Assembly: GCA_028712175.1 (NCBI GenBank) | Contig: JAQTQQ010000008.1 | Location: 1-50,199 of the forward strand | DNA length: 50,199 nt | Direction of reading: 5' to 3' | From: Candidatus Omnitrophota bacterium | GTDB lineage: Bacteria > Omnitrophota > Gorgyraeia > Gygaellales > Profunditerraquicolaceae | Shown: positions 17,470 through 47,467 of the stretch, piece by piece | How the letters are laid out: every line of letters begins with the position of its first letter | How positions within the stretch are numbered: the first letter of the stretch is position 1 | Notes under the pieces: model-generated | The model's input: the letters and a program-made list of their open reading frames with translations, nothing else | Told to the model about the DNA's origin: nothing | Databases searched by the model: none | Program-made: the position numbers and the translations under genes

Positions 17470-19890
17470 ATGTTTAATCGTTTTACTGAAAGAGCAAGAA
17501 AAGTAATTATTTTAGCCAAAGAAGAGGCACGGCGTTTTAATCATGATTATATCGGCACTGAACATATATTGTTGGGTTTAATCAGAGAGGGAGAGGGCGT
17601 GGCTGCGGCGGTATTACAGAAACTGGATGTTTCGCTTGAGAATATCAGGCTTGAAATAGAAAAATTAGTCCAGCCCGGGCCGACTACCCAAATTATCGGC
17701 GATATCCCTTTTACTCCCCGCGCTAAAAAAGCACTGGAGCTGGCGGCAGAGGAGGCAAGGAGCCTCGGGCATAATTATATCGGTACCGAGCATCTTTTGC
17801 TTGGGCTTATCCGCGAAGGCGAAGGCATTGCCTCGCAGGTATTATTAAATTTAGGCATGGATTTAAATTCTGTGCGTAATGAAGTGATGGGGCTTTTAGG
17901 TTCGGCCTTGCCGGGTATGAATCAAGGGCAGGCCGCGGCTGCAAAAACAAAAACTCCGGCCCTTGATGCTTTTGGCCGGGATCTTACTGCTTTGGCCCGT
18001 GAAAATAAATTGGATCCGGTAATTGACCGCGTGCAGGAGATTGAGAGGGTAATTCAGATTTTAAGCCGGCGTACCAAAAATAACCCCGTGCTTTTAGGGG
18101 AAGCCGGAGTAGGTAAAACCGCTATTGTCGAAGGGTTGGCGCAAGCGATCATAGCCGGGAATGTGCCGGAAATCTTAAGAGGCAAACGCCTGATAGTTTT
18201 AGATTTAGCCCTGATGGTTGCCGGGACTAAATACCGCGGCCAGTTTGAAGAAAGAATAAAAGCAATTATGGAGGAGATCAAACGTTCCCAAGATGTGATC
18301 ATTTTTATCGACGAATTGCATACCTTGGTCGGCGCAGGTGCCGCTGAAGGGGCAATTGATGCTTCTAATATCATGAAGCCTGCGCTTTCGCGCGGAGAGA
18401 TGCAGTGCATCGGCGCAACCACCATGGATGAATACCGTAAATATATTGAAAAAGATGCGGCTTTGGAACGCAGGTTCCAGACGATTATGGTTGAGCCTCC
18501 TACCGTGGATCAGACTATTAAAATTTTAAAAGGGCTGCGGGATAAATATGAAGCGCATCACCGGGTTACTTTTAAAGACGAAGCCCTTGAGGCTGCAGCT
18601 AAATTATCCGACCGTTATATTTCAGGAAGATTTATGCCGGATAAAGCAATTGATTTGATTGATGAGGCGGGTTCGCGCGCCCGTTTAAATGTTTTAATTG
18701 TCCCCGAGGAAATAAAAAAGATGGAGGTTAGCGTTGAGTCATTGAGGAAAGAAAAAGAATCGTATATTAAGAGCCAGGATTTTGAAAAAGCTGCCTCGCT
18801 TAGGGACCAGGAACGTTTGGCCCGGCAGGAGCTGGAAAAGTTAAATAAGGAGTGGAGCCAGGCAAAAGATAAAATGCGGCCTGAAGTGACCGCAGAAGAT
18901 ATCGCAAAAATACTTGCGCAGTGGACAGGGATTCCCATCTTCAGGCTGGAAGAGAAAGAGAGCGAAAAGCTGCTTAAGATCGAAGAAGAGCTGCATAAGC
19001 GGGTAGTCGGCCAAGATGAAGCAATCAAGGCCATCGCCCATGCCGCGCGCCGTTCCCGCGCAGGGATTAAAGATCCGCGCCGGCCTATCGGTTCGTTTAT
19101 ATTCTTAGGGCCAACAGGCGTTGGAAAAACCTTGCTTGCCCGGGCGCTTGCGGAATTCATGTTTGGCGACGAGGACGCTTTGTTGCAGCTTGATATGTCG
19201 GAATATATGGAAAAGTTTAATGTATCCCGTTTAATCGGCGCTCCCCCGGGGTATGTCGGGTATGAAGAGGGAGGCCAGCTTACGGAGCGCGTGCGCCGCC
19301 GGCCTTATGCAGTTATACTTCTTGATGAAATTGAAAAAGCGCACCCGGATGTTTTTAATTTATTACTGCAGGTTTTTGAAGAAGGCAGGCTTACCGACAG
19401 TTTCGGACGCAAGGTTGATTTTAAAAATACGATTATTATTATGACCTCTAATGTCGGGGCTGAAATGATCCGTAAAACCGGCGCTCTTGGTTTTCGAGTC
19501 CAGAAGGAAGAGGCCGGCTATGAAGACATGAAGGATAAGCTGCTTGAGGCAGTTAAGCATGCTTTTAAGCCGGAGTTCTTAAATCGTATCGATGATATTA
19601 TTGTGTTTAAGCAGTTATCCAAAGATGACTTAAGCCATATTATCGATATTGAGATAGGGTATGTTATTACCCGCCTGAAAGATCAAAATATATCTTTGGA
19701 AGTAACCAAAGAAGCCAAAGACCTTTTGATTGAGAAAGGTTTTGATCCGGTTTTTGGCGCCCGGCCACTAAAGAGGACTATTCAGCGGTTTTTAGAGGAT
19801 CCATTGGCCAATGAGATTATCTCTAAAAAATATAAGGAGGGCTCTGTGATTAAAGTCTCCCGCAAGAACGACGAGCTTAATTTCGAATAA
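17470..19890 (+). CDS. clpC: AAA+ unfoldase ClpC
   Basis: ClpC unfolds arginine-phosphorylated proteins for ClpP. The 806 residues have two N-terminal Clp repeats (about 1-145, each with [17 protein letters not shown] or a near copy). The first AAA+ module has Walker A K216, followed by a UVR-containing M-domain (about 420-455). The second AAA+ module has Walker A K553 and the arginine-finger region [13 protein letters not shown]. The UVR motif and N-repeats mark it as ClpC rather than ClpB. AGGAGA precedes the ATG. The last base of the stop is the first base of mlaE. Confidence 0.96.
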
Positions 19891-21498: not shown

Positions 21499-22113
21499 AT
21501 GATATTCGGTAAAACTAAATTGGAGTTAAAGGTAGGGGTCTTTGTTTTTATAAGTTTAGCCATTTTGGTCATTTTTTTACTGTCGATAGGGGGATTTAAA
21601 ACCTGGAGTTCAGGTTACCGAATAAATGTAAATTTTAGTTTTGTTAATGGTGTAAAAGTCGGCGCACCTGTGCGTTTTGCCGGGGTTGATGTCGGAGAGG
21701 TAAAAAAAATCCATCTGGAGTTTGTTCCCGAACAAAGCCGCTCCAATGTCCATCTAGTGATCTGGATAAGGGATATTATTAAGATACCTTCCGATTCAAG
21801 CGTCTGGGTAAATACCCTGGGGTTATTAGGGGAGAAATATATTGAGATAATACCCGGGAAAGATTATGTTAACTGCCTTAAGGTCAATGATTATTTGACA
21901 GGGGTTGATCCCCTGCCGATACATGCGATATTTAATAGGGCGGAAAATATAATGCGCAATCTGGATGAAGGCTTGTCTCAAATAAGGAATAAAGAAGGTT
22001 CGCTAGGAAAACTTATTTATGAAGATAATATTTATAATGAGCTGGAAGCCTTTATGGCCGATGTCCGCAAGAATCCCTGGAAATTATTTTATAAAACTAA
22101 AGAAAAGAAATAA
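21499..22113 (+). CDS. mlaD: MCE-domain lipid-binding protein MlaD
   Basis: The 204-residue protein has one N-terminal membrane anchor (about 10-32) and one MCE domain (about 35-120, with VNGVKVGAPVRFAGVDVGEVKKI and LLGEKYIEIIPG). MCE proteins form hexameric rings that bind phospholipid in the periplasm above MlaE. GGAGGGG precedes the ATG. The short C-terminus (about 125-204) is helical. No MlaA, MlaB or MlaC gene is nearby. The stop overlaps the radA start by one base. Confidence 0.9.
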   Translation: MIFGKTKLELKVGVFVFISLAILVIFLLSIGGFKTWSSGYRINVNFSFVNGVKVGAPVRFAGVDVGEVKKIHLEFVPEQSRSNVHLVIWIRDIIKIPSDSSVWVNTLGLLGEKYIEIIPGKDYVNCLKVNDYLTGVDPLPIHAIFNRAENIMRNLDEGLSQIRNKEGSLGKLIYEDNIYNELEAFMADVRKNPWKLFYKTKEKK

Positions 22114-23510
22114 TGAAAACAAAGACGGTTTTTAACTGTTCTGTTTGCGGGTACCAGTCTCCGAAATGGCTGGGTAGATGCCCGGATTGCAGCAGCTGGA
22201 ATTCTTTTGCTGAAGAGGATTATACCGCGCCTTCATCAGGGGTTAAGGAGAGGGTCTCTTTGTATAAAGAAGGCCCGGTGCTTTTAAGGGATGTTGTTGC
22301 AAAAGATGAAGACAGGTTAAAAACCAATATTCGTGAATTAGACAGGGTTTTGGGCGGCGGAATTGTTAAAGGTTCGGTAATTTTAATCGGCGGAGACCCC
22401 GGAGTAGGCAAATCTACAATCTCTTTGCAGGTTTCAAACCATCTCACTAAACAGGGTATCGGGGTGCTTTATGTAAGCGGCGAAGAAAGTGTAGCCCAGA
22501 CTAAGCTTCGCGCAAAGCGGCTGGGTGATTCAGGGTCGGATAATTTATACATAGTCAACCAAACGGATTTATCTTTAATTATTGAATATATAAGGAAGTT
22601 AAAACCGCAGGTAGTCATTATTGATTCTATCCAGGTTATTTTTGATTCCGGTATAAGTTCGTCTCCGGGAAGCGTTAGCCAGGTAAGGGAGTGCGCCGGG
22701 CTCCTTACGCAATTAGCAAAAACCACGGGCACTACTATTTTTATTATTGGCCATGTTACTAAAGAGGGGACGCTGGCCGGGCCGCGCGTATTAGAACATA
22801 TAGTTGATACAGTTTTATATTTTGAAGGTGACCGTTTTGCGATTTACAGGATACTACGTGCTGTCAAAAACCGGTTTGGCTCAACTAATGAGATCGGCGT
22901 ATTTGAAATGGGGCCTCAAGGGCTATTGGAAGTAAAGAACCCTTCGGAGATATTCCTTTCCGAAAGGCCGGATAATGTTTCCGGAACAATTGTAACTTCA
23001 ATCCTAGAAGGAACGCGCCCTCTTTTGGTTGAGATCCAATCGCTGGTTTCAAGAAGTTCATTTGGCTATGCCCGCAGGCGCGCGCAAGGTTTTGATTTTA
23101 ACCGGCTTTCGCTTCTGGTCGCAGTCTTAGAAAAACGCATGGGGCTGGCTCTTGAGGCAGAGGATATATTTGTCAATGTCGCAGGTGGAATAAAGATAGA
23201 GGATCCGGCAGCAGATTTAGCGGTGTGTGCGGTAATTGCCTCGAGTTTTCGCGAACAGGTGGTCGCGCCCAAGGCGGTGGTTTTGGGTGAGGTGGGGCTT
23301 AGTGGCGAGATAAGGAGTATTTCCCAGGTACTTACGCGCATCAATGAAGCAGAGAAGCTGGGTTTTAAACTGTGCGTATTGCCGAAAAACAGCACTAAAA
23401 ATTTAAAATTAAAAGAATCCGGTATGGAAATTGTCCCCGTTTCTACTTTAAAGGAAGCTTTAGATATTATCCTGGGGGCATCGGTTAAACAGCAAGGGGA
23501 GGCAAAATAA
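22113..23510 (+). CDS. radA: DNA repair ATPase RadA
   Basis: RadA (Sms) promotes branch migration during recombination. The 465 residues show the four-cysteine zinc finger ([18 protein letters not shown], residues 8-25), Walker [10 protein letters not shown] (about 93-101) and the RadA-specific [15 protein letters not shown] motif (about 252-266). A C-terminal Lon-protease-like domain starts near 285. The length is normal. TAATG overlaps join it to mlaD upstream and to the PIN-TRAM gene downstream. Confidence 0.96.
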
Positions 23511-45471: not shown

Positions 45472-46428
45472 ATGTTTTTAGAACATTTTAAGCTTACGGG
45501 GTTTGCCATGGCCCAAATATTTATTTTGGGCTCTTTAGGCTATTTTCTGGTCAGGAAGAAATTGTTTTCTCTGGCGGGGTTGGAGGATTTAAGCCGGCTT
45601 GTTATACAGGTTATTTTCCCTGCGTTGATCCTTAACCAGATGCTGCGGAATTTCAGTTTTGACCTGTATCCGATTTGGTGGGTGTTTCCGCTAATAAGCC
45701 TTGGGATTACTGTTTTAGGGTTAGGTTTAGGGTTAGGTTTAATAAAGCTGGCAAGGTTAAAAACACATAAACTGCAATTGTTAAGTTTGGTTGGATTTCA
45801 GAATTCCGGCTACCTGCCTTTGGCCATGGTAGCATCCATATTTTCCGGACAACAATTGAATGATATCTTTATTTATATATTTTTGTTTTTGCTGGGTTTT
45901 GATTTGGTTGCCTGGTCATTGGGGATATATATGCTTACTTACGATAGCCAGGCAAAATTCAAGTTGAAAAATATTTTTAGCCCTCCGGTAATCGCAAATT
46001 TGTCAGCCCTCTTACTTATAGCGTTGGGCTTAAATAAATTTATCCCCTCCGGCGTGCTTAAGCCCCTAGAGATGATAGGCAATTGCACATTGCCCCTTGC
46101 GATGATAGTTGTCGGAGGCAATGTTGCTTTGGTGCACTTAAAGAAAATAGACAAGAAGGCTGTTTTTTTTGTTCTTTTGGGAAAGTTGATTATATTGCCG
46201 GCGCTGGGAATATGGATAGTATTAAAACTTGGCCTGCCTCAACTATTCGGTTTCCTGATAGTCATGCAGCTGGCAATGCCTTCGGCAACTTCTTTGTCGG
46301 TGATTATCCGGCATTATAAAAGAGAGGATGTGTTAATTAGCCAAGGGGTGTTTTTCAGCCACATCGTCAGCCTTCTTACCATACCGGTATTTTTAGGTTT
46401 GTATTTATCTTTAGCTGTGTTAAAATGA
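45472..46428 (+). CDS. AEC family transporter
   Basis: The 318-residue membrane protein has about ten predicted helices, opening with FILGSLGYFLVRKKLFS and closing with IRHYKREDVLISQGVFFSHI, typical of auxin-efflux-carrier family proteins. Bacterial members transport malate, malonate or other organic acids; the substrate here is unknown. Its ATGA overlap with smpB probably means one transcript. Confidence 0.88.
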   Translation: MFLEHFKLTGFAMAQIFILGSLGYFLVRKKLFSLAGLEDLSRLVIQVIFPALILNQMLRNFSFDLYPIWWVFPLISLGITVLGLGLGLGLIKLARLKTHKLQLLSLVGFQNSGYLPLAMVASIFSGQQLNDIFIYIFLFLLGFDLVAWSLGIYMLTYDSQAKFKLKNIFSPPVIANLSALLLIALGLNKFIPSGVLKPLEMIGNCTLPLAMIVVGGNVALVHLKKIDKKAVFFVLLGKLIILPALGIWIVLKLGLPQLFGFLIVMQLAMPSATSLSVIIRHYKREDVLISQGVFFSHIVSLLTIPVFLGLYLSLAVLK

Positions 46429-46877
46429 GTAAACCTATTTCAACTAATCGCAAAGCCTATAGGGATTATGAAGTTTTAGAATCTTTAGAAAGCGGGATTA
46501 CTTTAAAGGGTTCCGAGGTTAAATCTTTACGCGCAGGCAAAATTAATTTAGATGATAGTTTCGCCCGCTTTGAGGGCGAGGAGATTTTTTTATATAACGC
46601 CCATATCAGCCATTATACAGAAGCCAGCTATCTCAATGTGGACCCGGACAGGCCCCGGAAATTATTGTTACACAAGAACCAAATCTTAAGGATCATCGGT
46701 AAACTTACCCAAAAAGGGCTTACTTTAATTCCCTTAAAGATTTATTTCAACGACCGGGGTTTTGTAAAAGTTGAGCTGGCTCTTTGCCGCGGCAAAAAAC
46801 TTTACGATAAGCGCCAGAGTATTAAAAAGCGGGAAACCGACCGCGAGATGAGAAGGATAGTTAAGAACAGACGGTGA
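46425..46877 (+). CDS. smpB: tmRNA-binding protein SmpB
   Basis: SmpB binds the tRNA-like part of tmRNA to rescue stalled ribosomes. The 150 residues include the OB-fold with LKGSEVKSLRAGKINLDDSFARFEGEEIFLYNAHISHY near 28-65 and the C-terminal tail DKRQSIKKRETDREMRR near 128-144, needed for trans-translation. It is complete and lies about 185 bases from ssrA. A 7-bp stem (46862-46887) straddles its stop. Confidence 0.96.
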   Translation: MSKPISTNRKAYRDYEVLESLESGITLKGSEVKSLRAGKINLDDSFARFEGEEIFLYNAHISHYTEASYLNVDPDRPRKLLLHKNQILRIIGKLTQKGLTLIPLKIYFNDRGFVKVELALCRGKKLYDKRQSIKKRETDREMRRIVKNRR

Positions 46878-46897
46878 TTAGTTCTTAGAAACCGTAA

Positions 46898-47044
46898 TGG
46901 TCGATAGTCGATGGACTATGGTCGATAAAACCGTACCTTTATAAAATATTTTTGGTGTTCAATAGATTTAAAGACTATTGACGATAAGAAATGTATAAAA
47001 TAACCGATGGTTTTATCGACAATCGACCATAGTCTATAGTCTAT
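46898..47044. repeat. Imperfect intergenic palindrome, copy 3
   Basis: Between smpB and ssrA a left arm (46914-46934, GACTATGGTCGATAAAACCG) pairs with a right arm (47007-47034) that carries a 4-base insertion. The interior also repeats GACTATTGACGATA. The word ATAGTCTATAGTC (47029-47041) is identical to one in copy 2. The gap contains no ORF. Confidence 0.65.
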
Positions 47045-47062
47045 TTATTCTTTTGATAATTT

Positions 47063-47467
47063 GGGGGTGAAAGGGTTCGACTTAAGATATGTCGGATAAA
47101 TTCAGCATGCCGCGGAGGTAAGGTTAGCCGCGTTAACAACCCTTACACAATTTAAACGCAAACACGCAAGTGTCACGTTTAGGAACATTTGTCGCTCCGT
47201 CATTGGCGGCGAGACCAATGTTCGTTCCAGCCTTCGGGCTTAATTAAGTCCGAAGCCTCTAACCGTCCTCTCCTACGGGATGGATTAGGGCCTTAGTAGG
47301 ATAGTTCCGGTCCTTGCCTTTAGAGCCGGAACGAAGTTTAAAAGGCTGCTCTTTGCAAATCCTGCCTTGTAGAAGTTGCAGAGCTAAGATAAATTACAGG
47401 GCTAAGCATGTAGCGGTATCTATCTGATTACTTAAGGACCCCGGTTCAATTCCGGGCACCTCCACCA
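47063..47467 (+). ncRNA. ssrA: tmRNA
   Basis: The transfer-messenger RNA is 405 bases long including CCA. Acceptor GGGGGTG (47063-47069) pairs with CACCTCC (47457-47463), followed by A and CCA. The T arm is CCCGG-TTCAATT-CCGGG. Pseudoknot 1 is visible near 47111-47152 (CGCGG/CCGCG interleaved with TAAGG/CCTTA). The resume codon is most likely GCA 47158, in the typical context AAACGCAAAC. The tag frame then reads AN...SLAA, but AGA (47212-47214) stands where a stop would be expected. The next in-frame stop is TAA 47245-47247, in the loop of a strong stem (about 47229-47258). SmpB lies just upstream. Confidence 0.95.

Follow-up and report, generated by a model that had tools for sequence, protein, structure and literature searches.

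Known tmRNA Tags and Their Proteases

E. coli ClpX contacts the last two alanines of the tmRNA-encoded tag together with the alpha-carboxylate, and a change of either alanine raises KM (PMC7652416). In Mycoplasma/Mesoplasma florum, ClpXP has been lost, the ssrA tag is long and changed, and Lon serves as its reader (Gur and Sauer 2008, as recounted in the review PMC8138137). Unfolding of an ssrA-tagged protein can be performed by ClpC1 in Mycobacterium (PMC6274998). According to a statement of 2014, only the Carsonella tag ends in a charged residue (PMC4131195). Our literature search found no paper on Omnitrophota tmRNA tags; the tmRNA database paper of 2025 (PMC11915505) leaves Omnitrophota unmentioned in its main text, although these genes may be among its 97,179 sequences.

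The tmRNA described here, from a Candidatus Omnitrophota genome, shares with the standard ClpXP degron (E. coli ANDENYALAA type) the one-piece form, an alanine resume codon, a stop codon in H5 and SmpB alongside. Unlike that type, its tag comprises 29 residues instead of about 10 and ends in GLN instead of LAA, and ClpX is absent. As in Mycoplasma/Mesoplasma florum, in so far as the review describes them, the ClpXP pathway has been lost and the tag has become longer and changed in the same lineage. Here, however, Lon is absent too while ClpP and ClpC are kept, therefore the reader must be a protease other than Lon; moreover, the tag change seems to have arisen more than once in one phylum. The Mycoplasma tag/Lon switch is the nearest precedent; the Omnitrophota case is parallel to it but lies outside that pairing. 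With Carsonella these tags share a C-terminal residue that is not hydrophobic. That system, however, belongs to a decaying endosymbiont, whereas here whole families with much larger genomes and an intact SmpB/tmRNA pair are concerned and, against the view of Carsonella as the sole charged end, 61 of 151 tags have Asn, Arg or His as their last residue.

The tmRNA Gene and Its Tag Frame

The window (the whole stretch of DNA that was analysed, 50,199 nucleotides) carries a standard one-piece tmRNA gene (ssrA) with encoded CCA at positions 47063–47467, identified by ARAGORN and Rfam; this gene and all features given below lie on the forward strand. The match to RF00023 (165.5 bits, E 1e-65, gathering threshold 47) covers the model completely (1–374) and includes the tRNA-like domain, the pseudoknots and the CCA end. 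Acceptor pairs 1–7 are invariant in 14 tmRNA sequences, and the third pair (columns 3/420) is G-U in 14/14, as expected for alanine identity. The resume codon GCA (Ala, 47158–47160) is directly preceded by TTAAAC; in nearly all relatives the upstream context is NNAAAC or NNAAAT before a GCN resume codon.

The tag frame (47158–47247; ARAGORN, codon alignment, synonymous excess) consists of 29 codons and TAA and encodes ANTQVSRLGTFVAPSLAARPMFVPAFGLN, ending in ...VPAFGLN; ARAGORN calls the same peptide, followed by a stop. Codons 16–18 are TTG GCG GCG (47203–47211), codon 19 is AGA (47212–47214), and the stop codon TAA occupies 47245–47247. The original prediction, made from the sequence, had placed the resume codon, LAA, AGA, the stop and the GLN end at exactly these positions, and the covariance model, which it had proposed as a check, and ARAGORN confirm the tmRNA and the frame.

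The stop codon falls within the H5 hairpin (47232–47255), whose stem pairs 47232–47241 with 47246–47255 around the loop 47242–47245 and shows two-sided compensatory changes across the genus. The frame runs from an alanine resume codon to a stop in H5 and is under selection. Another hairpin, moderately supported, lies inside the tag frame (47183–47223, arms 47183–47202 and 47204–47223); it shows a few two-sided changes but is partly broken in one relative (G016). Insertion of a palindromic element into the frame was considered for it and rejected: the hairpin is real, but the region gains or loses whole codons and shows codon conservation. It looks more like coding sequence with structure than like a mobile insert.

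The partner of tmRNA is encoded upstream by smpB (46425–46877, 150 aa; PF01668, 196.9 bits), an arrangement conserved in relatives. An imperfect 37-nt inverted repeat (46896–46932 and 47009–47045) with GACTATGGTCGAT-like words is situated just upstream of ssrA; its word ATCGACCATAGTC is absent from all other loci fetched.

Tags of Related Genomes

The appearance of LAA followed by AGA had been explained in the original prediction either by a 29-residue type of tag with a non-AA end or by a stop lost through mutation or mis-assembly. Relatives' tags were obtained by whole-genome search, and 19 tags of the ANTQVSRLGT/ANTTVSRLG type (this one and 18 further, nearly all of the same genus) were aligned by codon. 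Several relatives (e.g., L014, L027 and L041) were overlooked or put in a wrong frame by ARAGORN alone, and tags were therefore read again starting from the context of the resume codon.

The aligned tags are 24 to 33 residues long, all indels comprise whole codons, and in 19/19 the last codon is Asn followed by TAA. At the position of AGA the aligned tags have AGA, AGG, AAA or CGG, i.e., Arg or Lys in all 19, and no relative's tag has a stop there. The alanine codon before it varies only synonymously (GCG, GCC, GCA or GCT, 19/19), and the proline codon after it almost only so. Interior LAA and AGA (47203–47214) thus form part of a conserved (F/L)AA(R/K)PM module. Before the interior Ala-Ala most relatives have Phe (SFAAR), and this tag has Leu. 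That an in-frame LAA is unlikely to arise by chance, as had been argued, does not hold up in this alignment, where most relatives carry FAA and all have Arg or Lys after Ala-Ala.

Over the last 14 codons, 12 of 23 single-base variants are synonymous in the tag frame against 5.9 expected (p 0.006), and the two other frames give no synonymous excess. The Candidatus Omnitrophota MAGs nearest by the SmpB alignment scan carry the same kind of tag, as does a MAG among the SmpB-alignment matches (L073) with the tag ANTSSRLGTFGLPTARPMSPMFVPAFGVN. One MAG (G005) contains two different full-length tmRNA genes (L012, L057) with tags ending in ...VPAFGLN and ...VPVFGLN; the second could be either a second copy or contamination.

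An ancestral tag of 18 residues ending in LAA, whose stop was removed by point mutation or mis-assembly, could be imagined, as LAA looks like the usual tag end and AGA is one base from TGA. It is hardly credible, given that the aligned codon is never a stop in 19 tags from independent assemblies, that the 11 codons past AGA show synonymous-biased change and that the H5 hairpin holds the tag stop, just as it does in standard tmRNAs. Since relatives' assemblies are independent, assembly error is excluded. Translation in frame +2, open to UAA at 47241–47243 and ending in ...SLRA, is also very improbable. In most relatives this frame does stay open as far as a stop within the H5 loop, but it has no synonymous excess (3 of 18 variants against 4.0 expected), contains premature stops in five relatives (G009, G013, G017, G020 and G022) and would not start at an Ala codon. 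Frame +1 was rejected as the tag frame, an early stop in it being conserved across relatives.

The 29-residue tag with a non-AA end is therefore almost certainly genuine and its stop was not lost. Of the two original options, the first stands on the relatives, the frame-specific selection and the H5 structure, and the lost or mis-assembled stop falls on Arg or Lys in 19 tags of independent assembly; the ssrA alignment that had been suggested for deciding between them gave a plain answer. Judged by the codons, LAA at 47203–47211 is an interior fragment of the tag, not a lost C-terminus.

Proteases of the Genome and Its Close Relatives

The genome (G000) and its relatives, 58 genomes in all, were searched for proteases. 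The ClpX zinc finger was found in 0/58 and the full ClpX model gave 0/58 matches above the cut-off; bacterial controls were recovered in 10/10 with either model. ClpP is present in 53/58, including this genome (G000:C18:79876-80403). Real Lon is absent from all of the 58 genomes but one, a class-level relative (G056). Matches to Lon_C of about 30 bits were rejected as Lon, as they belong to proteins of RadA or ComM size, while true Lon in other Omnitrophota scores 300+ bits. One such match lies in the window, in a radA-like gene (22113–23510) with a KaiC/AAA core and 28.8 bits to Lon_C only.

The presence of ClpC and SmpB in the window, previously proposed, is borne out by Pfam. The clpC gene (17470–19890, 806 aa; Clp_N, UVR and two AAA domains, AAA_2 and ClpB_D2-small) could encode the unfoldase for the tag. 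The tag, with its GLN end, no C-terminal Ala-Ala and no ClpX in the genome, lies outside the ClpXP-type ssrA degrons. It likewise lies outside the Lon-type (Mycoplasma) degrons, the genome having only weak RadA/ComM-like matches. As a proposed ClpCP substrate it occurs in a genome that encodes both ClpC and ClpP.

Tag Ends across the Phylum

The non-AA end is lineage-wide and tied to ClpX absence, a point that the original prediction did not contain. Among 136 genomes drawn evenly from Omnitrophota, ClpX is present in 36 (the zinc finger and the full ClpX model choose the identical set), Lon in 6 and ClpC in 132. A ClpX-like ATPase of 515–536 residues (~300 bits) occurs in G091, G171, G096, G100 and others, with or without true ClpX; this paralogue falls under the ClpX cut-off and was not counted as ClpX.

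Tags were typed in 116 genomes with known ClpX state (114 of the phylum sample and two class-level relatives), where ClpX absence is scored on MAGs, some of them incomplete. The tag ends in Ala-Ala in 25/25 genomes with ClpX and in 3/3 with Lon and without ClpX. Among the 88 genomes that have neither, 71 have non-AA ends and 17 keep Ala-Ala; conversely, all 71 non-AA tags belong to genomes without ClpX and without Lon. Fisher's test of ClpX against tag end, a statistic that ignores kinship, gives p 2e-13. In this order, another 35 tags were read from ClpX-less relatives, every one with a non-AA end.

Because 17 genomes without ClpX and Lon keep Ala-Ala, ClpX absence permits the change of tag end and does not force it. 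These 17 come mostly from one family block (f34, f39–f41 and f46), with G067 in addition. ClpC likewise occurs in genomes that have retained the AA end. The tmRNA of G067 (L151) has the classic short tag ANEHLALAA in a 98% complete genome with no match to ClpX, Lon or ClpC. In two other genomes (L210 in G078 and L208 in G145) the resume codon seems to be GAC, so that the tag would start with Asp and end in FSFC, the frame being provisional. Some ClpX-less genomes have tags ending in ...LPLAV, ...LPLAI or ...VPFAV beside ...LPLAA relatives; possibly these tags are single-step intermediates in ClpX-less lineages.

Kinship was taken into account on an RpoB tree of 80 genomes, on which ClpX state must have changed at least 11 times and the tag end at least 9 times. 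Pagel-type tests of dependent against independent change, which can overstate few events, give p 8e-4 (ClpX) and 8e-5 (ClpX or Lon) on this tree. For the 70 genomes at least 90% complete, in a rerun that leaves out long or poorly filled rows, p is 3e-3 and 1.4e-4, respectively. In the fitted rates ClpX loss precedes loss of the AA end. The independent-pairs test over well-supported branches yields mostly 3–5 pairs in the same direction and 0 in the opposite one, with too few informative pairs for significance at 0.05 (p 0.06–0.25). The association of ClpX with the tag end is likely real and driven by few events, and we hold a link between the tag end and ClpX loss to be quite probable. For this order and a number of class relatives, the alignment of RpoB itself (L255 and other rpoB loci, ~1,140 residues) with the family model starts only at position ~298, and the N-terminal part of the protein is therefore either divergent or shortened.

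Terminal residues across the phylum are N, R, H, V, L, P, I and W. Such diversity would suit a tag that is no longer a degradation signal, with the terminus drifting, degradation dispensable and only ribosome release mattering. This is nevertheless unlikely: past codon 18 the tag is conserved at the amino-acid level in the genus, with synonymous excess, and the hydrophobic composition is kept over many families.

Possible Reader of the Tag

The best explanation as a whole, to which we assign a probability of about 0.75, is a functional tmRNA in which ClpX loss freed the Ala-Ala end and a long hydrophobic tag took over, probably read by ClpCP. According to this explanation, tmRNA and SmpB would rescue stalled ribosomes as usual and add the long tag. 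Since ClpX grips the terminal Ala-Ala carboxylate, the end would be unconstrained without ClpX, and with ClpX gone the terminal alanines would be free of selection. From there the tag could have turned into a long hydrophobic peptide rich in proline. ClpC would most likely unfold the rescued protein for degradation by ClpP, and hydrophobic segments of the tag, not its C-terminus, would be what is recognised.

ClpCP would be the natural candidate reader because ClpC1 unfolds ssrA-tagged protein in Mycobacterium, and we give its putative role as the protease for the tag an even chance. FtsH or another protease could read the tag instead. FtsH is nearly universal, some ssrA-tagged proteins of E. 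coli are among its substrates, and the tag is hydrophobic. Nothing speaks directly against FtsH, but of the soluble ATP-dependent pairs found, ClpC with ClpP is the best conserved, and a reader other than ClpCP seems rather unlikely. Returning to ClpCP, we tentatively propose a third kind of tmRNA degron, which Omnitrophota that lost ClpX and Lon may have acquired on several occasions. In it, ClpCP would recognise the interior of a long hydrophobic tag rich in Pro and Met, whatever the C-terminal residue.

Implications

For annotation, an LAA tag end should not be expected by default. Orthogonal tag/protease pairs could possibly be obtained from Omnitrophota, and their tags offer a direct test of the tag reader in ClpX-less bacteria. 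The Ala-Ala end is among the most conserved short degrons known. Omnitrophota, which keep it wherever ClpX is kept and have lost it only without ClpX and Lon, represent a natural experiment on the co-evolution of degron and protease.
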